In this document: in pieces, positions 31,197 through 44,535 of the stretch
How positions within the stretch are numbered: position 1 is the stretch's first letter
Layout of the letters: every line of letters starts with the position of its first letter
NCBI GenBank assembly: GCA_937873155.1
Contig: CALMVZ010000026.1
Location: forward strand, 248,001 to 312,000
From: an uncultured Bacteroidota bacterium
GTDB taxonomy: Bacteria > Bacteroidota > Bacteroidia > B-17B0 > Aurantibacillaceae
DNA length: 64,000 bases
Direction: 5' to 3'
Made by a program: the position numbers and the translations under genes
The notes under the pieces: model-generated
Told to the model about the DNA's origin: nothing
Seen by the model: the letters and a program-made list of their open reading frames with translations, nothing else
The model's database searches: none

Positions 31197-32459
31197 ATGA
31201 ACTTTCAAAATACCCCCGAATTCGCGAAACAATGCGACGCGAATGATAAGTTAAAAGCATTCCGTTCTAAATTCCATATGCCTCAACATAATGGAAAAGA
31301 TATGGTCTATTTTACAGGAAATTCACTGGGCTTACAGCCAAAAACAACAAAGTCTTTTATAGAGCAGGAACTTAACGATTGGGCTAAATTCGGAGTAGAA
31401 GGACACTTCATGGCTAAAAACCCCTGGATGCCATATCACGAATTCTTAACAGAGAACATGGCAAAGATTGTTGGAGCCTTACCTGAAGAAACCGTGATGA
31501 TGAACCAACTCACCGTTAATCTTCATTTATTAATGGTGTCCTTTTATCGTCCCACAAAGCAACGTTATAAAATTTTGTGTGAAGCAAAAGCGTTTCCGAG
31601 CGATCAGTATGCTTTGCAATCCCAAATAAAATTTCACGGATTAAAGATCGAAGATGCTTTAATTGAAATTGAACCAAGAAAAGGAGAATATACGATACGT
31701 CACGAAGATATTTATGAAGCGATAGAAAAGAATAAAAATTCCCTGGCTTTGATCATGATCGGCGGCGTGAATTATTTCAGCGGCCAGGTTTTCGATATGA
31801 AAAAAATTGTTGAGGCAGGACATAAAGCAGGAGCAATCGTTGGTTTTGATTTAGCACACGGCGCAGGAAATTTAAAATTACAATTGCACGATTGGAATGT
31901 GGATTTCGCTTGCTGGTGCAGTTATAAATATTTGAATAGTGGTCCTGGAAGTGTTGCCGGTGCCTTCGTTCATCAAAAACATTTAAAGAATACTGATTTA
32001 CCAATGTTCGCAGGTTGGTGGGGACATGATAAGAAAACCCGTTTCCTAATGGATAAAACATTTATTCCGATGGAAACAGCAGAACGTTGGCAAATGAGTA
32101 ACGCGCCTGTATTTTCAATGGCAGCATGCAGGGCAAGTTTGGAAATTTATGCAGAGGCGGGAATGGATGCCTTGGTTGAAAAAAGTAAAGTATTAACTGC
32201 GTATTTAGAATTTATAATTGAAGAGATCAACAAACAAAAGAATAATTGCCTGCAAATAATCACACCAAAAGAAAATCGTGGTTGTCAGATCTCAATTGTC
32301 GCGAATGGTTACGGCAAGTCACTTTATAATAAATTAATGGAAAACGGCGTAATACCGGACTGGCGCGAACCCAACGTAATCCGCTGCGCACCTGTGCCTT
32401 TATATAACTCTTTTGAGGATGTTTACAGGTTTGGAGAAATACTAAAGTCTTTATTATAG
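31197..32459 (+). CDS. kynU: Kynureninase
   Basis: PLP-dependent hydrolase (420 aa) that cleaves kynurenine or 3-hydroxykynurenine to (hydroxy)anthranilate plus alanine. Family segments are YFTGNSLGLQPK near the N-terminus, FDLAHGAGNLKLQLHDW and the PLP lysine in CWCSYKYLNSGPGSVAG. I start it at 31197 because the protein family begins with this segment and the promoter box lies inside the longer frame. In Bacteroidota, KynU often serves NAD synthesis from tryptophan through quinolinate; no kmo or haao gene is in the window. It lies about 2.3 kb upstream of the trp operon. Converges on the phoD-like gene with a 3-nt gap. Confidence 0.93.
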   Translation: MNFQNTPEFAKQCDANDKLKAFRSKFHMPQHNGKDMVYFTGNSLGLQPKTTKSFIEQELNDWAKFGVEGHFMAKNPWMPYHEFLTENMAKIVGALPEETVMMNQLTVNLHLLMVSFYRPTKQRYKILCEAKAFPSDQYALQSQIKFHGLKIEDALIEIEPRKGEYTIRHEDIYEAIEKNKNSLALIMIGGVNYFSGQVFDMKKIVEAGHKAGAIVGFDLAHGAGNLKLQLHDWNVDFACWCSYKYLNSGPGSVAGAFVHQKHLKNTDLPMFAGWWGHDKKTRFLMDKTFIPMETAERWQMSNAPVFSMAACRASLEIYAEAGMDALVEKSKVLTAYLEFIIEEINKQKNNCLQIITPKENRGCQISIVANGYGKSLYNKLMENGVIPDWREPNVIRCAPVPLYNSFEDVYRFGEILKSLL

Positions 32460-32462
32460 ATC

Positions 32463-34349
32463 TTATTGTTTTACGAATTTAACTGTTGTACTTCCTGAAG
32501 TAGTTTCGATTCTCACAAAGTAAACTCCTGCCGCAAGTCCTGATGTCTTTAAAGAATAATTATTAATGCCATCACTTGTATTTTGGAGCGTAGTACTTTC
32601 CACCTCTTTACCTTCAGCATTTATGACCTTGAATGTTACATCACCTTTTGTAATATTGAAAAGTTGTATGGTAAGCAGAGCATTTGAAGGATTCGGGAAA
32701 ACGGATAATATACCGGGCTTAAACGAAAATGGTTTTATATCTGTAGAAGTAGCAGTTCGAGGACATAATGGTGCCTTTATTCCGTAAATACTATTTCGTG
32801 GTATCGTTGCTGTGCTTGTGGTTTTCAGGAAACGTTGACCGGTGCTCACATAATATGATTTCACATGAACATAAGAGGATGTTTTAGTATCTAGTGTAGG
32901 AATGTGGAACCAATCCGATTGTGTTTTTGTTTTGTTCACATCCATGATTATATAACCATGTTGTGAAAGTTCTACCCATTTGATATGGCTGTTGGAGATC
33001 TGTAGTGCAGTCGCTCCGCCCGGAATACTTGAACCGGGAGAAGTAACGCTTGGTGTAACAAATTCAACGCCGGCAGAACCCGCTCCTGTTAAACTATTAT
33101 AAGTTGAGGTCGGCAGATCACATGCCCATGACGAATGGATATCACCGGTTACAACCACCATGTTCTGGATTCCTTTTCCTAAAACATGATTATAGATTCT
33201 ATCACGCTCCGCAGGATAACCATCCCATTGATCTCCATTTATTGCAACCCCGAAAAGTTTTACCGGTGCGATCATCACTTGTTGTCCTAAAACTTTCCAC
33301 TGACAATTTGTAGAATCAAGTTTGTTTTTCAACCATGTCATTTGGGGCCCTCCTATTAACCGGCGATTAGTATCAGCAACAACTGTACCTGTGGTGCCGG
33401 CTTGAAGATCACGGCCTGTAACCCTTGTATCCAGCATCATTAATTCAACAAGATTTCCATATTTTATATTTCTGTAGATCTGATACGGATCGGTTGTTCC
33501 GGTCTTACGAATTGGTAACCATTCAAAAAAAGCTTTTTGTGCGCACAATTTTCTATCACTCCATAATCCTTCGGTTGCTGTAGTATGGTTTCCCGCACCA
33601 TTCTTCCAGGCATCGTTCGCTAGTTCATGGTCATCATAAACAATAATGAAAGGAAACTGCTGGTGTAACCTTTGCAGATCATCATCAAGTCTGTACGATG
33701 AGTAACGCATCCTGTAATCGGCTATAGAAAGGATTTCTGTCGCAGGAGACCATTGGCGGTTAACAACAGTGTTCGGAGAATATCCTCCCGTTTCGTATTC
33801 ATAAATATAATCACCCAAAGAAAGGACGGCATCAAAATCCGAACGCTGCAATAGACTATTATAAACATTGAACCAACCGGCTTCAAAATTGGCGCAAGAA
33901 ACCAAAGCGAAACGTAAGCTGTCAATATTTCCTGAAGGGGCCGTTCTTGTGCGCCCGCGAGGAGAATAATAATTGCCGATCTTAAATTCATAATAGTAGA
34001 ATGTTCCTGCATTTAATCCGTTTGCATCTACTTTAATAGTAAAATCTTTGCTTGAGTCGGTTAATGCCACTCCTGAGTTTACCACATTGAACATGGCAGT
34101 GTCCGTTGCTATCTGCCAATTCACAGTTAATGTTTGAGTTATTTGAGCTGAGTCTGGCGTAACTCTTGTCCAGATAATTACCCTGTCGGTTAAAGGATCA
34201 CCGGAAGCCACACCATGGTAAAAAGGTTTCAGGCAAGGCTGCAAAGTAACTTTATGTTCTATCGGAACAAATGCATGTTCTTCTAGTTTAATATTCTGTG
34301 CGAGCGAAACATTTGCAAAAGTGATGAATAGTAGAATGAGTTTTTTCAT
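32463..34349 (-). CDS. PhoD-like alkaline phosphatase/phosphodiesterase with T9SS sorting domain
   Basis: Secreted metallophosphoesterase, 628 aa from the ATG at 34349, which begins a clear signal peptide (KKLILLFITFANVSLAQ). An N-terminal PhoD Fn3-like domain (FYHGVASGDPLTDRVIIWTR) is followed by the PhoD catalytic domain with SLGDYIYEY, VYDDHELANDAW and VVTGDIHSSW. The last ~80 residues are a type A T9SS tail (SVFPNPSNALLTIQL...GVYFVRIETTSGS), so it is exported across the outer membrane and probably anchored. Likely role: phosphate scavenging from phosphodiesters. No Pho-box can be judged here. Confidence 0.94.
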   Translation of the reverse strand: MKKLILLFITFANVSLAQNIKLEEHAFVPIEHKVTLQPCLKPFYHGVASGDPLTDRVIIWTRVTPDSAQITQTLTVNWQIATDTAMFNVVNSGVALTDSSKDFTIKVDANGLNAGTFYYYEFKIGNYYSPRGRTRTAPSGNIDSLRFALVSCANFEAGWFNVYNSLLQRSDFDAVLSLGDYIYEYETGGYSPNTVVNRQWSPATEILSIADYRMRYSSYRLDDDLQRLHQQFPFIIVYDDHELANDAWKNGAGNHTTATEGLWSDRKLCAQKAFFEWLPIRKTGTTDPYQIYRNIKYGNLVELMMLDTRVTGRDLQAGTTGTVVADTNRRLIGGPQMTWLKNKLDSTNCQWKVLGQQVMIAPVKLFGVAINGDQWDGYPAERDRIYNHVLGKGIQNMVVVTGDIHSSWACDLPTSTYNSLTGAGSAGVEFVTPSVTSPGSSIPGGATALQISNSHIKWVELSQHGYIIMDVNKTKTQSDWFHIPTLDTKTSSYVHVKSYYVSTGQRFLKTTSTATIPRNSIYGIKAPLCPRTATSTDIKPFSFKPGILSVFPNPSNALLTIQLFNITKGDVTFKVINAEGKEVESTTLQNTSDGINNYSLKTSGLAAGVYFVRIETTSGSTTVKFVKQ

Positions 34350-34500
34350 GGTTAAAAGGAAAGTCTGAAGTTGTCTCAAACTCTTAACTTCCGTTTTAAT
34401 TCAGGATTATGAAAACACTAAGTATCAGCGTGAACGGGTAAACTTTAACGCTGGAGTTTAATAAGTTAATGACTTTAATGTTACCGTCAGGTAAACTATT

Positions 34501-34531
34501 TTTGGAGATTTAAAAAATCTTCGTACATTTG
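34501..34531 (+). promoter_or_regulatory. Promoter of the trp-aro operon
   Basis: TTTG (34501-34504), a 19-nt spacer and TACATTTG (34524-34531) match the Bacteroidota promoter consensus exactly. The box ends 7 nt before the leader-peptide ATG, placing the transcription start at about 34535. Confidence 0.75.
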
Positions 34532-34538
34532 ACCCATA

Positions 34539-34601
34539 ATGAAAAAACAATTTGTAAATAATTCATGGTGGTGGTTCTCAACGAAGGTTGTGAACAGCTA
34601 A
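34539..34601 (+). CDS. trpL: trp operon leader peptide with three consecutive Trp codons
   Basis: A 20-codon frame (ATG AAA AAA ... TAA) encodes a peptide beginning MKKQFVNNS, then WWW at 34566-34574, then FSTKVVNS and stop. It lies directly behind the trp promoter and ahead of an antiterminator/terminator pair. Three Trp codons in a row in 20 codons, immediately upstream of trpE, is the hallmark of a regulatory leader whose translation senses charged tRNA-Trp. The frame is too short for ordinary gene callers. Confidence 0.88.
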   Translation: MKKQFVNNSWWWFSTKVVNS

Positions 34602-34662
34602 ATTATTTATAATTAGTATAGGACTTTTTGAAGCCCGCTGTTCACATAACAGCGGGCTTTTT
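34574..34662 (+). promoter_or_regulatory. Transcription attenuator of the trp-aro operon
   Basis: Segments 1:2 form a pause hairpin at 34574-34582/34587-34595 (one mismatch, loop GAAG) that starts on the last Trp codon. Segment 2 can instead pair with segment 3: GTGAACAGC (34590-34598) with GCTGTTCAC (34637-34645), a perfect 9-bp antiterminator. Segments 3:4 form the terminator: 12-bp stem 34631-34642/34648-34659 with a CACAT loop and T run 34658-34662. The alternatives are mutually exclusive. A ribosome stalled at the Trp codons covers segment 1, frees segment 2 and prevents termination. Confidence 0.88.
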
Positions 34663-34675
34663 GTTTGGCTTCAGG

Positions 34676-34705
34676 CCTCACTCCAACCCTCTTCAAAGGA
34701 GAGGG
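34676..34705. repeat. Partial copy of the two-hairpin repeat family
   Basis: GCCTCACTCCAACCCTC, then TTCAAAGGAGAGGG, is on the opposite strand a member of the same CCCTCTCC...GGGTGAGG family as 3930-4120, with the second hairpin missing. It sits between the attenuator and the trpE ATG, inside the operon leader. Confidence 0.5.
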
Positions 34706-34727
34706 AGAAAAAATAAAAATTAAAGAC

Positions 34728-36182
34728 ATGAAATTAAATACATGCATAAAAGAAATCCTTGCCGATACCAAAACACCGGTTTCGCTTTATCTTGCCTTGC
34801 GCGATAAATATGCTTCGTCTGTTCTATTAGAAAGTTCCGATTACAATTCGAAAGAAGGACATTATTCGTATATCTGTTTGAAACCGATCGCTTCTTTCTC
34901 ATTGAATAAGGGAATTATAAGTATAAAAGAAGGAAAGAAAATTGCAGAAACAGGAATTGGTTTCGATGGCCTTGAACTAATCAAACAGTTCAATGCTTTT
35001 AAAAATAGTTTTGAAGTTGAAGAAAAAAAATTTCCTTTCTGTACTTCAGGTTTGTTCGGGTATACTTCGTTTGATATTATTAAATACTCTGAAAATGAAA
35101 GCTTAAGTACAAACTCAAAAGAAGCCGGGATTCCTGAATTGTTCTATCAGTTCTTCAGCATTATTTTAGTGTTCAATCATCATAATAATTCCCTGCATAT
35201 TATATCTCACGCAAAAAGCGCAACCGAGAGTGTTAAACAATTGAGCAATGTTGAAGAAGAAATTGAATCACATATCCCATCTTTTCCTTTTTGTACGGTC
35301 GGACAAGAAGAAGCTAATATAGAGAATAAAGAATTTAAGGACCTGGTTACTAAAGCTAAGCAACACTGTAAATTAGGAGATGTTTTTCAATTAGTTTTAT
35401 CCAGAAGATTCAAAACCAAGTTCAAAGGCGATGATTTTAATGTATATCGCGCTTTAAAGAATATTAATCCTTCACCGTATTTATTTTATTTCGATATGGG
35501 TGATTTTAGATTGTTCGGTTCTTCTCCTGAAGCACAATTGATCGTTAAGAATAATGTCGCAGAAATTCATCCTATAGCAGGAACTTACAGAAGAAGTGGT
35601 AATGATGCAGAAGATCTGCAAAAAGCAAATGCCCTGACAAAAGATGTAAAAGAAAATTCAGAACACGTTATGTTAGTTGATCTGGCAAGAAATGATCTCA
35701 GCAAGTATTGCGATAAAGTAGCAGTGACTTCTTTTAAAGAGTTACAATTGTATTCTCATGTGATCCATTTGGTAAGTAACGTTAAAGGGCAATTAAAAAA
35801 AGGAATTGATAGTTTTGAAACTTTACTCGGGACTTTTCCGGCAGGAACTTTATCAGGCGCTCCTAAATACAAAGCTTTGCAACTTATTAACGAATATGAA
35901 CCAGCTGCCAGGGAATTTTATGGCGGATGTGTAGGTTTTATTGGTCTGAATAATTATATCAATCACGCGATAATGATCCGCACTTTTTTAAGCAAAAACA
36001 ATACATTGTTTTACCAGGCAGGAGCGGGAATTGTCATCTCATCAGATGAGGAAAGTGAGTTGCAGGAGATCAATAATAAGGTCACTGCATTAAGAAAAGC
36101 AATAGTTAATGCGCAAAAATTTAATAATATTGCAGAAGCAAATACCGAAGCTCCTGTTTTGGAAAGGGAGATTGCATCATGA
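34728..36182 (+). CDS. trpE: Anthranilate synthase component I
   Basis: Converts chorismate plus NH3 (from TrpG) to anthranilate, the first committed step of tryptophan synthesis. It has 484 aa from the ATG at 34728, chosen because the upstream in-frame extension is repeat sequence. The feedback-inhibition element LLES is at residues 33-36 (VLLESSDY). The catalytic half shows FGSSPEAQLIVK, HPIAGTYRRSG, ENSEHVMLVDLARND and the TLSGAPKYKALQLI motif. The 3' end overlaps trpG by 4 nt. Expression is predicted to be controlled by the attenuator just upstream. Confidence 0.97.
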   Translation: MKLNTCIKEILADTKTPVSLYLALRDKYASSVLLESSDYNSKEGHYSYICLKPIASFSLNKGIISIKEGKKIAETGIGFDGLELIKQFNAFKNSFEVEEKKFPFCTSGLFGYTSFDIIKYSENESLSTNSKEAGIPELFYQFFSIILVFNHHNNSLHIISHAKSATESVKQLSNVEEEIESHIPSFPFCTVGQEEANIENKEFKDLVTKAKQHCKLGDVFQLVLSRRFKTKFKGDDFNVYRALKNINPSPYLFYFDMGDFRLFGSSPEAQLIVKNNVAEIHPIAGTYRRSGNDAEDLQKANALTKDVKENSEHVMLVDLARNDLSKYCDKVAVTSFKELQLYSHVIHLVSNVKGQLKKGIDSFETLLGTFPAGTLSGAPKYKALQLINEYEPAAREFYGGCVGFIGLNNYINHAIMIRTFLSKNNTLFYQAGAGIVISSDEESELQEINNKVTALRKAIVNAQKFNNIAEANTEAPVLEREIAS

Positions 36183-36751
36183 AAAAATTATTGATAGTAG
36201 ATAATTACGACAGTTTTACTTATAACCTGGTCCATTTGGTAGAAAAGGTAAGCGAAATTTCATTTGATGTAGTTCGGAACGATAAAATTTCTATTGAGGG
36301 AATAAGTAAATATGATAAGATCCTTTTATCTCCGGGTCCGGGTTTACCAAAAGATGCGGGCATAATGCCTGAACTCCTTAAAAAATATTCTTCTTCAAAA
36401 TCTATTCTTGGCGTTTGTTTAGGTATGCAAGCCATTGGTGAAGCCTTCAATTCCAAGTTGAAAAATCTCGATACTGTTTTTCATGGTTTGGCAACCCCTA
36501 TTGATATTACTCAGGATGATCTTATTTTCGAGGGTTGTCCAAAACAATTCAATGTTGGCCGCTATCATTCGTGGGTAGTGGATCAAAATGGTTTAAGTTC
36601 TGATCTTGTTGTTACGGCTATTGATGAAAATGATAATATCATGGCGCTAAAACATAAAACTTTAGATGTTCGTGGCGTTCAGTTCCATCCCGAATCTATT
36701 CTTTCAGAGCACGGCGAAACTATCATACGCAACTGGCTTAAAGCCTGGTAA
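36179..36751 (+). CDS. trpG: Anthranilate synthase component II (glutamine amidotransferase)
   Basis: Class I amidotransferase, 190 aa, that supplies ammonia to TrpE. The triad is visible: Cys80 in GVCLGMQA, His170 and Glu172 in VQFHPES. The N-terminal IVDNYDSFTYNLVH and LSPGPG motifs are typical. It may also serve p-aminobenzoate synthesis, as dual-use TrpG/PabA proteins do. It overlaps trpE by 4 nt. The following 107-nt gap holds a palindromic repeat. Confidence 0.96.
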   Translation: MKKLLIVDNYDSFTYNLVHLVEKVSEISFDVVRNDKISIEGISKYDKILLSPGPGLPKDAGIMPELLKKYSSSKSILGVCLGMQAIGEAFNSKLKNLDTVFHGLATPIDITQDDLIFEGCPKQFNVGRYHSWVVDQNGLSSDLVVTAIDENDNIMALKHKTLDVRGVQFHPESILSEHGETIIRNWLKAW

Positions 36752-36858: not shown

Positions 36859-37848
36859 ATGAAAATACTATTAGAAAAATTAAGCACACACGCTAAGCTC
36901 TCAGAAAAAGAAGCTTACGAATTTATAGTTGGAATAAGCGAAGAACGTTTCAATACTACACAATTAGTAGCAGCGATGTCGTTTTTAATTAAGCGACCTG
37001 TATCAGTTGAAGAATTAACGGGATTCAAAAATGCTCTGTTAGATCTGAGCATAGAAGTTCAACTCGACAAAGATGCAATTGATGTTTGCGGAACCGGTGG
37101 TGATCAGAAAAATACGTTTAATATTTCTACTCTCTCAGCAATCGTATTAGCAGCTTCGGGAGTACCTGTTGCGAAGCATGGTAATCACGGAGCGAGTTCT
37201 GTTTCCGGTTCTTCCGATATTTTAAAATATTTAGGATATCAATTTAAAACAACTTCGAATGAATTGAATGATGAATTAAAGAAATACAACATGTGTTTTA
37301 TTCATGCGCCATTGTTTCATCCTACTTTGAAACGCGTTGCGACTCAACGAAAAGAATTAGGTATTCGTACGTTCTTTAATCTATTAGGCCCACTGGTAAA
37401 TCCGGCAAGAGTAAAACATAAGTACGTCGGTGTTTACAACAAGGAAGTAGGTCGTTTGTATAGTTATGTTTTACAGAATGAGAATTCTAATTACAACATT
37501 GTGCATTCTTTAGATGGATATGATGAAATAAGTCTGACCGGGGCATTTAAGACAATTGGTAATGAAGTTGAAAAAGTCCACGAGCCTGTTGACCTGGAAT
37601 TTGAAACTCTTTTGGAAAAGGAATTGTATGGCGGAAAAACGATTGAAGAAGCGGGCAGAATATTCCTGAATGTTCTCAATAATAAAGCCACAAAAGCCCA
37701 GGCAAATGTTGTGATAGTGAATAGTGCGTTCGCTATGCAAACTTACTTTCCAGGCAGATCTATCCACGAATGTATTTCGGAATGTGAAGAAACTATAGTA
37801 TCAAAAAAAGCAAGTCAATTATTTAAAAACCTTATAACTGAAAATTAA
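36859..37848 (+). CDS. trpD: Anthranilate phosphoribosyltransferase
   Basis: Transfers phosphoribosyl from PRPP to anthranilate. Its 329 aa are close to the usual length. Active-site segments are VCGTGGDQKNTFNIST (PRPP-binding glycine loop, about residues 75-90), KHGNHGASSVSGSSD and FNLLGPLVNPA. It is separated from trpG by a repeat and followed 1 nt later by trpC. Confidence 0.96.
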   Translation: MKILLEKLSTHAKLSEKEAYEFIVGISEERFNTTQLVAAMSFLIKRPVSVEELTGFKNALLDLSIEVQLDKDAIDVCGTGGDQKNTFNISTLSAIVLAASGVPVAKHGNHGASSVSGSSDILKYLGYQFKTTSNELNDELKKYNMCFIHAPLFHPTLKRVATQRKELGIRTFFNLLGPLVNPARVKHKYVGVYNKEVGRLYSYVLQNENSNYNIVHSLDGYDEISLTGAFKTIGNEVEKVHEPVDLEFETLLEKELYGGKTIEEAGRIFLNVLNNKATKAQANVVIVNSAFAMQTYFPGRSIHECISECEETIVSKKASQLFKNLITEN

Positions 37849-37849
37849 G

Positions 37850-38665
37850 ATGAACACGCTGGACAAAATTCTATCAAACAAAAAAATGGAAGTTGATGAA
37901 AGGAAATCACTTTATCCGATCCCTTTATTGAAGAGATCAGTTTATTGCAATTCACAAACTGTTTCTTTGGCGAAATACCTTAAAAGAGACGACAAGAATG
38001 GAATTATTGCTGAGATAAAACGGCATTCTCCTTCACAGGGATATTTGAATAAGTACTTGAACGTTGAACGTACTTCTGTTGGTTATATGCAGGCCGGAGC
38101 AAGCGCTTTGTCCGTCTTGACGGATGCTGAATTCTTTAAAGGGACTTCCGAAGATCTGTCAACAGCAAGAAAATTTAATTTCTGTCCGATACTTAGAAAA
38201 GATTTTATAATTGATGAATACCAGATCGAAGAGTCAAGATCGATTGGGGCAGATGCCATTTTATTGATCGCCGCGGTTTTAAGTAAAGGTGAAATAGAGA
38301 AATTTACAGAACTGGCACATTCTTTAGGCCTGGAAGTATTATTAGAAATTCATGGTGAGGAAGAATTAGAAAAAATTTATGATAGAGTTGATATAGTTGG
38401 GGTCAATAATAGAAATTTGAAAACATTACAGATCGATATTAATACTTCATTCCGATTATCGGAACTAATTCCATCTAAATTCCTTAAAGTATCAGAAAGC
38501 GGGATTGAAGATCCTGAAACGATACAAAGACTAAGAGAAGTTGGATATGGTGGATTTTTGATCGGCTCTCATTTTATGAAACATCCACGGCCGGAATATG
38601 CCTGTAAAGATTTTATTGACATTTTGAACAAAACAAGAAAGGACCTGGTGGATTATGAAAATTAA
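37850..38665 (+). CDS. trpC: Indole-3-glycerol phosphate synthase
   Basis: TIM-barrel enzyme (271 aa) that closes the indole ring from the TrpF product. Signature segments are IIAEIKRHSPSQG with the catalytic Lys, ALSVLTDAEFFKG, PILRKDFIIDEYQI, VGVNNRNLKT and VSESGIEDPE. It overlaps trpF by 11 nt, so the two are coupled but not fused as in E. coli. Confidence 0.96.
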   Translation: MNTLDKILSNKKMEVDERKSLYPIPLLKRSVYCNSQTVSLAKYLKRDDKNGIIAEIKRHSPSQGYLNKYLNVERTSVGYMQAGASALSVLTDAEFFKGTSEDLSTARKFNFCPILRKDFIIDEYQIEESRSIGADAILLIAAVLSKGEIEKFTELAHSLGLEVLLEIHGEEELEKIYDRVDIVGVNNRNLKTLQIDINTSFRLSELIPSKFLKVSESGIEDPETIQRLREVGYGGFLIGSHFMKHPRPEYACKDFIDILNKTRKDLVDYEN

Positions 38666-39260
38666 AGTGTGTGGTTTAAGGAATTACGAGAATATTTCAA
38701 ATGTGATCATTGCAGGAGCGGATCATGTTGGTTTTATTTTTTATAAGCATTCGCCAAGGTATTTTGACGAGGCATTGACTTTTGATGAGATGAGAACTAT
38801 CAAAGCAAAGAAAGTAGGCGTTTTTGTAAATGAAAGTTCTTATTCGGTTTTGGATAAAGTTGCCCATTATGATCTTGACCTTGTTCAATTACATGGGAAC
38901 GAATCTCCGGAGTATTGTGAAGAGCTTGGTAAGTATGTCGAGACAATAAAAGCTTTTGGAATTAGTCAAGATTTTGATTTTGGGGTTCTTTCAAATTACA
39001 AAGTAGATTATTTTTTGTTTGATACTGCAACTTCTCTGCATGGAGGAAGCGGAAGAAAGTTTGATCACAGCCTGCTTCAAAAGTATGACCTGAACATTCC
39101 TTTCTTTATAAGTGGCGGGATTTCCTTGGAACACAGTCAAAGCATCAAACAATTAAGTATTAAGCAATTAGTAGGAGTGGACCTTAATTCGAAATTCGAA
39201 AGTTATCCAGGAATGAAAGAAGCTTCTAAAATAAAACAATTCATAAAGCAATTACAATGA
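38655..39260 (+). CDS. trpF: Phosphoribosylanthranilate isomerase
   Basis: Amadori rearrangement of phosphoribosylanthranilate. The 201-aa TIM barrel has the KVCGLR start with the catalytic Cys, [27 protein letters not shown] and the C-terminal SGGIS phosphate-binding loop. It overlaps trpC by 11 nt and trpB by 4 nt. Confidence 0.95.
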
Positions 39261-40462
39261 AAAAGTATAATGTATCAGAGCAAGGTTATTATGGTTCTTT
39301 TGGCGGAGCTTACGTTCCGGAGATCTTATTCAATAATGTTGAGGAGTTGAAAAATTCTTATTTAAAAGTAATTCAGACTGAAAAATTCCAAAATGAATTT
39401 CAGGGACTATTAAGGGATTATGTTGGACGTCCAACTCCTTTATTTCATGCCAAGAATTTGTCGGAGCAATTCAACACAACTATTTTTCTGAAAAGAGAAG
39501 ATCTTAATCATACCGGTGCGCATAAGATAAATAATGCTATTGGACAGATTCTTCTTGCAAAGGAGTTAGGAAAAACAAGGATCATTGCCGAAACAGGGGC
39601 AGGGCAGCATGGGGTTGCAGCCGCTACAGTTTGTGCACTGATGGGAATGAAGTGTGTTGTTTATATGGGGGAGACTGATATTGTCCGTCAGGCGCCGAAT
39701 GTGGCAAGAATGAAAATGTTGGGAGCAACTGTTGTTCCGGTTCTGTCAGGCAACAAAACGCTTAAAGATGCTACCAATGAAGCGATCCGGGATTGGATCA
39801 ATAACCCCGAGAGTACCTATTATTTGATCGGTTCTGTGGTTGGTCCGCATCCTTATCCTGATATGGTTGCCGGGTTTCAGTCTGTGATCAGTAAGGAAAT
39901 AAAAGCACAATTAAAAACCGCTTTAGGAAAAGAAAACCCCGATTATGTTGTAGCTTGCGTTGGTGGTGGAAGTAATGCGGCGGGAGCATTTTATCATTTT
40001 CTGTACAACGAAGATGTAAAACTCATCGGAGTTGAAGCGGCGGGAAAAGGAATTCACTCAGGACATACGGCCGCAACGCTTTCAGTTGGAAGTGCGGGAA
40101 TTATTCACGGAAGTAAAACTATTTTGATGCAAAATGAAGATGGACAAATAACTGAGCCCTATAGTATTTCCGCGGGATTGGATTATCCCGGAATTGGGCC
40201 GGTTCATGCTTACCTGAATGAAGTGAGAAGAGCGGATTATATTTCAGTAACTGATGTTGAAGCTTTAGAAGCGGCAATAGATCTCACTAAAAAAGAGGGG
40301 ATCATTCCTGCACTCGAAAGCGCACATGCTTTGGCAGCATTAGGAAAATTAAAATTTAAAAAGAATGAAGTCGTGATCTTAAATTTATCAGGAAGAGGGG
40401 ATAAAGATCTTGAAACATATACTAACTATTTAAACAAAATTAATTATGCAAAACAGAATTGA
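39257..40462 (+). CDS. trpB: Tryptophan synthase beta subunit
   Basis: PLP enzyme that condenses indole with serine. Its 401 aa correspond to the standard TrpB1 type that pairs with TrpA. The PLP lysine is Lys90 ([13 protein letters not shown]). GAGQHGVA, the phosphate-binding GGGSNAAG and the C-terminal NLSGRGDKD are all intact. It overlaps trpF by 4 nt and trpA by 17 nt. Confidence 0.97.
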
Positions 40463-41237
40463 CGCATTATTTGCCAGGAAAAAACAGGATATTCTTTCTA
40501 TATTTTTCACGGCAGGCTTCCCTAATTTAAAGGATACGGGTTTGATACTTGAATCATTGGAAGAGTCGGAAGCTGATCTTGTTGAAATCGGTATTCCGTT
40601 TTCTGATCCTTTAGGCGATGGGCCGGTGATCCAGGATAGCAGTTTGGTCGCTTTAAAAAATGGAATGAATTTGAATTTGCTCTTTCAGCAATTAAAGGAC
40701 ATGAGAGTAACTGTACAAAAACCTGTTTTGTTAATGGGATATTTAAATTCTGTGATGCAGTTCGGAATAGAAAAATTCTACCGGCAATGTGCAGCTGTTG
40801 GAGTAGATGGTATTATTCTACCGGATCTTCCATTAGAGGAATTCAAGATGTATCACCAAAGAATTACAGAAGAACTAAATATTAAAGTAGTTTTTTTAGT
40901 AAGCGTGGATACAAAGCCGGAACGGATAAAGCAATTGGATGAAGCTAGTGGAGGATTCCTGTATTTGCTGTCATCTAATTCCACTACAGGTGGCGTTAAA
41001 GGAATTCCCGAACAATTCCACTCAAAAGTTTCTGTAGTGAAAAATTCTGTCACTAAAAACCCGTTACTTATTGGTTTTGGGATCAAAGGACAAAAAGAAT
41101 ATTCTCAAGCCTGCGAAATAGCTAATGGTGCGGTCATTGGTTCGGCATTTATTGAATTGCTGACAAGATCCCACAACTTCAGAAAAGATATAGCCGGGTT
41201 CACTTCAATAGTTAAAACTAAACTGATAAAGTCATGA
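40446..41237 (+). CDS. trpA: Tryptophan synthase alpha subunit
   Basis: Cleaves indole-3-glycerol phosphate to indole for TrpB. A 263-aa TIM barrel with catalytic Glu47 and Asp58 in [16 protein letters not shown], followed by [14 protein letters not shown] and [12 protein letters not shown]. The frame overlaps trpB (17 nt) and the DAHP synthase gene (4 nt). Confidence 0.97.
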
Positions 41238-42235
41238 TCATTCAACTTGAAAAAAATGCAGGGACAAGCTCCTTAGATGAAATTAAGAGTGCGTTAGGAA
41301 AATATAAGTATACCGCTAATCCTGTTACAACGCAATTCGAGAATTATTTGGTTTGCATTGGTAAAACGGAATTTGATATCCGTGAGATCGGTCATCTGAA
41401 AGGTGTAAAGGACGTACATCGTGTTTCTGATAATTATAAATTAGTCAGTAATAAATGGAAAACAAAGAATACACAGATCGATCTGGGGGATAATGTTATT
41501 ATCGGAGATGGTTCAACAGCTTTAATGGCCGGGCCATGTTCAGTTGAAAGTGAAGAGCAAATGGAAAGCATCACCAGTCATCTCATCAAAAATAATATAA
41601 GGATCATGCGTGGCGGTGTTTATAAGCCGCGTAGCTCACCATATGCTTTCCGTGGATTAGGAATTGACGGATTAAAAATGATGCACTCGTTTTGTAAACC
41701 AAATGGAATTAAAATCATCACTGAGGTTATGCAGGTTTCCCAAATTGAGGAAATGTATCCTTATGTGGATGTTTTCCAGGTGGGAGCACGTAATTCTCAA
41801 AATTTTAATTTATTAGATGCTTTAGGGGAATTGGATAAATCAGTTTTGATAAAAAGGGGAGTTAGTGGTACGATAGAGGAACTTTTATATTCAGCCGAGT
41901 ATGTTTTCAGTAAAGGAAATGAACGTTTAATGTTATGTGAGCGTGGTATCAGAACTTTTGAGACGATCTATCGGAATACGTTCGATATTAATGCCATTCA
42001 GGTCCTAAAAGACAAGACCCATTTGCCTGTTATTGCAGATCCGTCACACGGGGTTGGGATCAGGGACCATGTATCTAAACTCGCTTTAGCTTCTGTTGTA
42101 GCCGGGGCAGACGGGATAATTTATGAAGTACATGAGAAACCGGAAGAAGCTTTATCGGATGGTCAGCAAACCCTTAATTTTATGGAATCTGACCTGTTAA
42201 TACAAAAACTGAATAAACTTTCGGCATTTGTATAA
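41234..42235 (+). CDS. aroF: 3-deoxy-7-phosphoheptulonate (DAHP) synthase, type I-beta
   Basis: First step of the shikimate pathway (PEP plus erythrose 4-phosphate). Its 333 aa consist of an N-terminal ferredoxin-like domain (about 1-70), as in regulated type I-beta enzymes, and a KDO8PS-like barrel with MAGPCSVESEEQ, RGGVYKPRSSPYAF, EVMQ, QVGARNSQNF, LIKRG and IADPSHGVGIR. Its position as the eighth gene of the trp operon (4-nt overlap with trpA) makes shikimate entry subject to the trp attenuator. The gene symbol follows common Bacteroidota/Bacillus usage. Confidence 0.93.
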   Translation: MIIQLEKNAGTSSLDEIKSALGKYKYTANPVTTQFENYLVCIGKTEFDIREIGHLKGVKDVHRVSDNYKLVSNKWKTKNTQIDLGDNVIIGDGSTALMAGPCSVESEEQMESITSHLIKNNIRIMRGGVYKPRSSPYAFRGLGIDGLKMMHSFCKPNGIKIITEVMQVSQIEEMYPYVDVFQVGARNSQNFNLLDALGELDKSVLIKRGVSGTIEELLYSAEYVFSKGNERLMLCERGIRTFETIYRNTFDINAIQVLKDKTHLPVIADPSHGVGIRDHVSKLALASVVAGADGIIYEVHEKPEEALSDGQQTLNFMESDLLIQKLNKLSAFV

Positions 42236-42253: not shown

Positions 42254-43306
42254 ATGATCAGATCGCTGGGTTATACTATCTATACAGGTAAAACGGTTTT
42301 CAAGGACCTGAATTCATTTCTTAAAAAGCAAAACTACAGCGGCTATTTTATTTTGTGTGATGAGAACACTTTAAAGCATTGCCTGCCAACTTTAATCACA
42401 CAGTGTAAAGAATTGAAGAATGCTGAGATCTTTGAAATTGAAAGTGGTGAGAGTTCAAAAAGTTTGCAGCTTTGTTCTCAATTATGGGAAGCGCTTTTGA
42501 GTTATAATGCAGATAAAAATGCTTTGATCATAAATTTGGGAGGCGGAGTGATCTCTGATCTTGGAGGTTTTATCGCTTCGGTTTATAAAAGAGGTATTGA
42601 TTTTATAAATATCCCTACATCGGTATTGGCAATGGCAGATGCAAGCGTTGGTGGAAAAACAGGAATTGATTTTGCGGGATTGAAAAATACAATAGGAACT
42701 ATTACCCAGCCAAAAGGTGTTTTTGTTTATCCTCCTTTTCTGGAAACACTTCCGGCAAGACATATTGCGAATGGTATGGCGGAAGTTTACAAAATGGCCC
42801 TGATATCAGATAAAGTTCTATGGAAGAAACTAAAACCGGAGAAGAATTTTAATCAGGCATCTGTTATTAAAAGTATAGAGCATAAGAATAATATTGTTAA
42901 GAAGGATCCATACGATAAAGGTGTACGAAAGTCTTTGAATTTTGGACACACTATTGGTCATGCAATTGAATCCGTTCTGTTAGCTAGCGGAATTGATGTT
43001 TTGCATGGAGAAGCGGTTGTGATCGGAATGATCTGTGAGGCAAAGCTATCGTTTGATAAAAAGTTAATATCGAAAGCTGAGTGCTCCGAAATAATTCAAA
43101 TCCTTTCTCAGAAGTTCCCGCTGGTGCCTTTGCCTGCTCTTTTATTTGGTGAAATAATAAAGGCAACGATCAATGATAAGAAGAATAATAAACTTCAGAT
43201 CAGATGCACTTTGTTGAACCGGATCGGTAAATATAAAATTGATGTCACTGTTAGCCCTGACCAGATACTTGATTCTTTAGAATATTACAACTCTCTAAAC
43301 GCATGA
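42254..43306 (+). CDS. aroB: 3-dehydroquinate synthase
   Basis: NAD-dependent cyclisation of DAHP to 3-dehydroquinate; 350 aa. Family segments are NLGGGVISDLGGFIAS, INIPTSVLAMADASVGGKTGID, NGMAEVYKMALI and NFGHTIGHAIE with zinc-binding His residues. It lies 18 nt after the DAHP synthase gene and overlaps aroA by 4 nt. Confidence 0.95.
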   Translation: MIRSLGYTIYTGKTVFKDLNSFLKKQNYSGYFILCDENTLKHCLPTLITQCKELKNAEIFEIESGESSKSLQLCSQLWEALLSYNADKNALIINLGGGVISDLGGFIASVYKRGIDFINIPTSVLAMADASVGGKTGIDFAGLKNTIGTITQPKGVFVYPPFLETLPARHIANGMAEVYKMALISDKVLWKKLKPEKNFNQASVIKSIEHKNNIVKKDPYDKGVRKSLNFGHTIGHAIESVLLASGIDVLHGEAVVIGMICEAKLSFDKKLISKAECSEIIQILSQKFPLVPLPALLFGEIIKATINDKKNNKLQIRCTLLNRIGKYKIDVTVSPDQILDSLEYYNSLNA

Positions 43307-44535
43307 TGCAGATCTCACCTCCAACAGGAAGTATACAAACAGAGGTCGAACTACCAGGTTCGAAAAGCATCAGTAACCGTTTGTTAATGATCCGTGCAAT
43401 TTCAGGATTGCCGATTCATTTTAAAAATTTATCGGATTCTGAAGACACGATCTTATTAGCAAAAGCACTTGGACAAGTTCAGGGAAAAAAAAGCGGAACA
43501 GTAAATATCAATCACGCCGGAACCGACATGCGCTTTTTAACTGCGCATCTTTCAATTAAAGAAGGTGAGTGGGTCATAACAGGTTCTGAACGGATGAAGC
43601 AGCGTCCGATCTCTGAATTAGTGAATGCGCTTGTGGCGCTTGGCGCTGATATAACATATATAGAAAAACAAGGTTTTCCTCCTCTGAAAATAAATGGAAA
43701 AAAACTCCATGGAGGGAGAATAGAAATTGATGGGAGTATCAGCAGTCAGTTCATTTCCGCATTAATGTTAGTAGCTCCGGCTTTAGGAGAAGAACTCGAA
43801 ATAATTTTGAAAGGAAATATAGTTTCGCTTCCTTATATAAAAATGACTAGTGAATTACTTAAACTTTTTGGCGTGTACGTTTCATTCAATGGAAAAAGGA
43901 TTACTGTTACTCCCGCACCTTTCAGCATGTTGAATGATCAGTTCCTGGTTGAATCAGATTGGTCAGCCGCTTCGTATTGGTTCAACCTCGTTGCATTGAC
44001 TAATAATTCTGAGATCGAATTAAAATATCTTGATAAAGTGAGTCTGCAAGCTGACTCGATTTTGCCTGAGATTTATAACAAGCTGGGAGTAAGAACTGAA
44101 TTCGTTGAGAAAGGAGTTTGTTTAAGAAGCAAACAAAGTACTGTTGAAGAATTTGAATATGATTTTACAAATTGTCCGGATATTGCACAAACAATTGCTG
44201 TTACTTGTTTTGGGTTGGGAATAAAAGCACATTTAACAGGACTTCAAACTTTAAAAATAAAAGAAACTGACCGGATCATTGCTCTTAAAACAGAATTAGA
44301 AAAACTTGGCGCAAGTGTTGAAGCAACTGAAAATTCATTAAAGATAGTTTCGCCTGTTAATTATAACATAAACCAACCAGCAATATTGACATACAACGAT
44401 CATCGTATGGCTATGAGCTTTGCTCCGCTTGCAATAAAATTCCCTCAAATTAAATTACAAAACCCTGAGGTTGTAGATAAATCTTATCCGGCTTTCTGGG
44501 ACGATCTTCAGCAGGCAGGTTTTAGTGTAGATTAA
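43303..44535 (+). CDS. aroA: 3-phosphoshikimate 1-carboxyvinyltransferase (EPSP synthase)
   Basis: Penultimate shikimate step, adding the enolpyruvyl group from PEP. It has 410 aa. PGSKSISNRLLMIRA is at the N-terminus, then AGTDMRFLTA (Phe where most enzymes have Pro after MR), ISSQFISALM and LKIKETDRI. These pieces place it in a shorter, divergent EPSP synthase branch that I associate with Bacteroidota. It is the last gene of the trp-aro operon and converges with the iron-permease-like gene 1 nt away; no hairpin terminator is visible between them. Confidence 0.93.
   Translation: MMQISPPTGSIQTEVELPGSKSISNRLLMIRAISGLPIHFKNLSDSEDTILLAKALGQVQGKKSGTVNINHAGTDMRFLTAHLSIKEGEWVITGSERMKQRPISELVNALVALGADITYIEKQGFPPLKINGKKLHGGRIEIDGSISSQFISALMLVAPALGEELEIILKGNIVSLPYIKMTSELLKLFGVYVSFNGKRITVTPAPFSMLNDQFLVESDWSAASYWFNLVALTNNSEIELKYLDKVSLQADSILPEIYNKLGVRTEFVEKGVCLRSKQSTVEEFEYDFTNCPDIAQTIAVTCFGLGIKAHLTGLQTLKIKETDRIIALKTELEKLGASVEATENSLKIVSPVNYNINQPAILTYNDHRMAMSFAPLAIKFPQIKLQNPEVVDKSYPAFWDDLQQAGFSVD

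Follow-up and report, generated by a model that had tools for sequence, protein, structure and literature searches.

Putative tryptophan-responsive leader-peptide attenuator ahead of a trp-aro operon in a Bacteroidota bacterium

The window analyzed here is a 64-kb stretch of DNA from a Bacteroidota genome, and all coordinates refer to positions within it. As the earlier note had proposed, it harbors a trp-aro operon; Pfam domains confirm ten genes in the order trpE-G-D-C-F-B-A-aroF-aroB-aroA, all in one direction.

34728–36182, plus strand: trpE, anthranilate synthase component I (PF00425, PF04715)
36179–36751, plus strand: trpG, glutamine amidotransferase component (PF00117)
36859–37848, plus strand: trpD, anthranilate phosphoribosyltransferase (PF00591)
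37850–38665, plus strand: trpC, indole-3-glycerol phosphate synthase (PF00218)
38655–39260, plus strand: trpF, phosphoribosylanthranilate isomerase (PF00697)
39257–40462, plus strand: trpB, tryptophan synthase beta (PF00291)
40446–41237, plus strand: trpA, tryptophan synthase alpha (PF00290)
41234–42235, plus strand: aroF-type DAHP synthase (PF00793)
42254–43306, plus strand: aroB, 3-dehydroquinate synthase (PF01761, PF24621)
43303–44535, plus strand: aroA, EPSP synthase (PF00275)

The closest named TrpE proteins are about 50 to 53% identical to that of the window. The order of the trp genes is the same in all eight relatives compared, and aroF follows trpA in seven of them, the exception (L206) being a contig that ends soon after trpA; aroB-aroA come next in five. 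Elsewhere in the same genome, which is rated 100% complete, there is a second DAHP synthase of 373 amino acids, the C-terminal part of which reads like a chorismate mutase from its sequence. Searches of this genome for IlvD, prephenate dehydratase, and the C-terminal domain of prephenate dehydrogenase gave no match and, given these absences, the organism may depend on an outside supply of several amino acids. Keeping shikimate genes under the control of a Trp switch may be sensible if Trp is a main product of the pathway. Upstream, at 31197–32459, lies a gene that resembles kynureninase by its sequence and would have a role in Trp breakdown; in members of the genus (L201, L202) such a gene immediately precedes the trp leader, and in the window a minus-strand ORF (32463–34379) stands between the two.

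The DNA immediately ahead of trpE carries the following elements.

34501–34504, plus strand: −33 element TTTG (within TTTTTGG), assigned by comparison with the consensus of the Bacteroidota sigma-ABfr type promoter
34524–34531, plus strand: −7 box TACATTTG, a perfect Bacteroidota box; predicted transcription start at about 34536
34539–34601, plus strand: leader ORF (trpL) of 20 codons, MKKQFVNNSWWWFSTKVVNS followed by a stop codon; near-leaderless by prediction and conserved in 22 family members
34552–34612, plus strand: 1:2 hairpin, with an outer A+U stem (34552–34563 with 34601–34612) and an inner stem (34569–34582 with 34587–34600); matches the stem of RF01692
34566–34574, plus strand: three adjacent Trp codons (TGG TGG TGG), the proposed sensing codons
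34589–34598, plus strand: region 2, TGTGAACAGC, the last codons of the leader ORF and the 5' side of the antiterminator
34630–34662, plus strand: intrinsic terminator (3:4), with a 5-nt loop and a T run to 34662
34637–34646, plus strand: region 3, GCTGTTCACA, the 3' side of the antiterminator, overlapping the 5' arm and loop of the terminator

The 20-codon leader ORF with its three adjacent TGG codons is present as had been described. Trp accounts for only 11 of 3,232 codons (0.34%) across the ten operon genes, and the expectation for three Trp in a row within a 20-codon ORF is about 7e-7. On both strands of the window, the trp leader is the only short ORF with adjacent Trp codons (WW) that is followed by a G+C-rich terminator.

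The consensus for sigma-ABfr is TTTG at −33 and TAnnTTTG at −7 (PMC7366714), and in the leader the TTTG element lies 19 nt upstream of the −7 box. Since the −7 box of mapped Flavobacterium psychrophilum promoters sits at −12 to −5 (PMC9723704), transcription of the trp leader is predicted to start at about 34536, leaving a 5'UTR of about 3 nt. A sigma-70 promoter scan found nothing at the leader, since this phylum relies on a different promoter. Thus, the consensus promoter proposed earlier exists, as a Bacteroidota −7 box with TTTG and not as a sigma-70 sequence.

The hairpins were largely as expected from the earlier note, with corrections to their extent. The pause hairpin, which had been placed on the last Trp codon, in fact starts at the second, and an A+U-rich outer stem that had been missed encloses the Trp codons. 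The antiterminator pairs perfectly over 10 bp (34589–34598 with 34637–34646) rather than 9, and the terminator, put at 12 bp from 34631, has 13 pairs counting one G-U (34630–34642 with 34648–34660). There is no other terminator-like site between 34000 and 35000. The leader fold is more stable than that of shuffled sequences (z = −5.5; 0 of 200 shuffles equally stable). In predicted folds, the unmasked leader forms 1:2 plus 3:4 (−41.0 kcal/mol), RNA free from 34612 forms the terminator alone (−21.7), and RNA free from 34586, before arm 4 is made, pairs regions 2 and 3 (−15.9). Once arm 4 has been made, the terminator is still the more stable fold at equilibrium even with region 2 free; therefore, the switch would be kinetic and dependent on timing, as in E. 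coli. Between the terminator and trpE, at 34687–34705, there is also a palindrome, CCCTCTTCAAAGGAGAGGG, with similar sequences before hisG and in the relative L022. It was considered as a dispersed repeat and rejected as such, a related exact pattern occurring just once elsewhere in the genome.

Judging by its sequence, this arrangement most probably constitutes a classical, ribosome-mediated transcription attenuator through which charged tRNA-Trp would control trpEGDCFBA-aroF-aroB-aroA, a reading to which we assign a probability of roughly 93%. Its parts, their conservation and their covariation were observed directly, and from them we infer a start site, ribosome loading, pausing and a response to Trp that would operate as follows. 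With transcription starting about 3 nt ahead of the leader AUG, the ribosome would load on a nearly bare 5' end. The last Trp codon ends at 34574, region 2 occupies 34589–34598 and the stop codon begins at 34599; given the standard footprint, a ribosome paused on one of the three Trp codons, whichever it is, would leave region 2 free, and one standing at the stop codon would cover it. When Trp-tRNA is ample, the ribosome would pass the three Trp codons, reach the stop codon and cover region 2, so that the terminator forms and transcription ends at about 34662. When it is scarce, the ribosome would wait on a Trp codon with its front edge reaching only about 34584 to 34586, and region 2, left free, would pair with region 3 before the 3' arm of the terminator is made, allowing RNA polymerase to enter trpE. 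Without translation, the 1:2 hairpin would hide region 2 and the terminator would form.

If such a switch is at work, its parts may be expected in relatives. A true trpE was found in 23 of 61 family genomes, the remaining matches being weak and pabB-like, and in 22 the upstream DNA could be checked; the 38 genomes lacking the gene may represent Trp auxotrophs, though several of them are incomplete. All 22 checkable members have a WW or WWW leader and a terminator before trpE, and in 20 of them region 2 ends exactly at the leader stop codon. L021 has a divergent leader with a weak antiterminator of 5 bp. L024 carries entirely different arm sequences that are still perfectly paired (CACAGCAGGT with ACCTGCTGTG), with region 2 inside a longer ORF. 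In an alignment of 20 family leaders, three terminator pairs are changed on both sides, and 16 cells of the 1:2 hairpin are changed likewise; the covariation score of the terminator was reached by 0 of 500 shuffles, and the result for the hairpin also by 0 of 500. The antiterminator varies little among these leaders (92.6% paired, changes mostly G-U) and did not beat the shuffles. As the antiterminator varies too little within the family, pairing of regions 2 and 3 was evaluated across the phylum by swapping partners between genomes. In 66 leaders whose terminator arms are distinct, duplicates having been removed, the segment running from the Trp codons to the terminator was paired with the arm; native duplexes averaged −11.97 kcal/mol, and those with swapped partners −9.26 kcal/mol (z = −8.6, a statistic that ignores kinship; 0 of 20,000 permutations as good). 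An attenuator of the E. coli trpL type, as first proposed, is hence supported by Trp codons kept in every relative and by stems that covary: 1:2 and 3:4 within the family, and 2:3 phylum-wide though not above shuffles within the family.

The same arrangement extends well beyond the family. Seventy-nine trpE loci of named genomes were drawn from the 80 best TrpE matches, a sample that favors the query's side of the phylum; they span Flavobacteriaceae, Cyclobacteriaceae, Spirosomataceae, Hymenobacteraceae, Chitinophagaceae, Sphingobacteriaceae, Marinilabiliaceae, Prolixibacteraceae and others. A short WW leader ORF precedes trpE at 75 of them, and spaced Trp codons were found at two more (WHWHH in L114 and WLW in L166), for a total of 77; L150 and L170 have no Trp leader. 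A strict terminator test was passed by 65 of the 75 WW leaders. The 750 shuffles produced 16 WW ORFs, none of them together with a strict terminator. In the sampled Bacteroidota, leader-peptide attenuation thus shows as nearly universal for trpE, far beyond what the Rfam model detects. Moreover, a classical attenuator works only if a ribosome follows RNA polymerase closely, and the spread of such attenuators makes transcription-translation coupling in the phylum directly testable.

These observations also bear on other explanations of the locus. The best of them, itself improbable, holds that the terminator is constitutive or a processing site, that the product is a small peptide or small RNA, as with rnTrpL and peTrpL of Sinorhizobium meliloti, and that Trp sensing is secondary or absent. 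Termination would indeed yield an RNA of about 125 nt with a coding region, and the S. meliloti products, from a trpL that is leaderless too, act in trans (PMC7298713). However, peptide sequences diverge freely across the phylum, whereas the Trp run is retained along with region 2 and the terminator, and a peptide function would need no match between region 2 and the terminator. The two functions could coexist at the trp leader. Still less probable is an element that senses a ligand or protein (Trp riboswitch, T-box, or TRAP-like) and uses the terminator, the ORF being incidental. Elements of these types do control trp operons in Firmicutes; yet an Rfam search of the 64-kb window at curated cut-offs gave no match to a T-box or any other family, there is no conserved noncoding core, and what is conserved is the ORF with its start codon, Trp codons and stop position. 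T-box, riboswitch and TRAP-like explanations were dropped for want of a supporting match. Finally, many weak hairpins arise by chance in A+T-rich intergenic DNA, but conservation in relatives, with the arrangement before trpE in 22 of 22 family members and 77 of 79 named loci and in none of the 750 shuffles, already excludes a chance origin.

Ribosome-mediated attenuation, the reading we prefer, has clear relatives among known systems. The E. coli trpL leader (RF00513, Trp_leader) is similar in its ORF with adjacent Trp codons, in its 1:2, 2:3 and 3:4 pairings and in a terminator of the form AGCCCGC...GCGGGCTTTTT. The window leader scores 34.9 bits against this model (E = 1.1e-5), below the cut-off of 41, which is passed by one of 20 family leaders (L006, 42.4). 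It differs from the E. coli leader, which has two Trp codons, in having three, in placing region 2 in the last codons of the ORF so that it ends at the stop codon, in the lack of a Shine-Dalgarno leader, in its predicted 5'UTR of about 3 nt and in an additional outer A+U stem that encloses the Trp codons. A flavobacterial form is described by the Rfam family RF01692, Bacteroid-trp (Weinberg et al. 2010, PMC2864571), which shares with the window leader the phylum, the position before trpE, the AUGAAAAAA start, the Trp codons and the large 1:2 hairpin. By contrast, the window leader reaches 30.0 bits where the cut-off is 49, all 20 family leaders fall short of it, and the 131-position model ends ahead of the terminator on the window leader. 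In 297 phylum genomes, RF01692 gave 30 matches, 28 of them in one family (f5) and one each in two others (f12 and f4). A model built from the window's family alone gave 53 matches in these genomes at a permissive threshold; among them were 19 of the 30 RF01692 loci, just upstream of trpE.

For F. psychrophilum, a 2019 paper interpreted Bacteroid-trp as an attenuator like that of E. coli (PMC6414381), and a 2021 transcript map of this species reported strong signs of attenuation by leader peptides ahead of amino acid operons (PMC9723704). The F. psychrophilum leaders resemble ours in phylum and proposed mechanism and in structured 5' elements, including one before hisG; they differ in belonging to another family and in their evidence, a transcript map and fold prediction in one species. 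With RF01692 known since 2010 and these later papers, the suggestion that attenuation would be unexpected in Bacteroidota, where attention was said to be on other regulation, does not hold. In S. meliloti, the trpL RNA begins with the leader AUG itself, so that a leaderless, ribosome-dependent Trp attenuator has a precedent (PMC7298713), though in another phylum and with another promoter, and the 3- to 6-nt 5'UTR of the window's family is a promoter-based prediction. Overall, the trp leader switch is well supported and largely known in kind, its type being already catalogued. Novelty is modest and lies in a lineage below both Rfam cut-offs, which annotation pipelines overlook, in near-universality for trpE in the phylum and in a leader ORF 3 to 6 nt past the predicted start.

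The nearly leaderless start of the leader peptide, put at about 4 nt by the earlier note, agrees with promoter position in the family. The gap between −7 box and ATG is 7 to 10 nt in 20 of 21 scorable family leaders, predicting, from the promoter, 5'UTRs of 3 to 6 nt; L021 is the exception, its nearest box match lying 22 nt from the ATG, and L004 was left out since it starts too near its contig end. Among 74 leaders of named genomes, 52 have a perfect −7 box within 45 nt (versus 3% in shuffles), and 28 have a spacing that implies a 5'UTR below 10 nt (versus 1%). Near-leaderless starts as a universal trait were rejected: of 68 named leaders with a recognizable −7 box, 31 have a predicted 5'UTR below 10 nt, and many of the others cluster around 11 to 16 nt. 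Genome-wide, only about 3.7% of Bacteroides thetaiotaomicron 5'UTRs are shorter than 10 nt (PMC7366714), and leaderless mRNAs make up 5.5% in F. psychrophilum (PMC9723704).

A similar start may apply to histidine leaders. The window's own genome carries, before hisG, a His-codon leader (MKNYSQTHHHHTYSNKVSVGEFCVL) with a terminator (G000:C27; L209, reverse complement, about 1135–1290). Similar His leaders occur in most family relatives with hisG, usually 4 to 10 nt past the −7 box and in some cases 14 to 19. A leader ORF 3 to 6 nt past the predicted transcription start appears, then, to be a layout of the family, shared with most of its his leaders and rare genome-wide in the phylum. A broader proposal, tentative and rather doubtful at present, concerns trp and his attenuators throughout Bacteroidota, a phylum lacking Shine-Dalgarno initiation. 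Leader ORFs that are leaderless or nearly so would have evolved there as a common design of these attenuators, allowing a ribosome to load once the RNA emerges and to stay coupled to RNA polymerase. If true, the phylum would depend on tight coupling at trp and his operons through an initiation route otherwise rare there, and such short 5'UTRs pose the question of how ribosomes start on these leaders without Shine-Dalgarno sequences. Some leaders mix Trp and His codons (WHWHH in L114, from Carboxylicivirga, about 2797–2860) or have His directly following the Trp run (WWWH), L166 and several others being among these cases; they possibly sense more than one tRNA.
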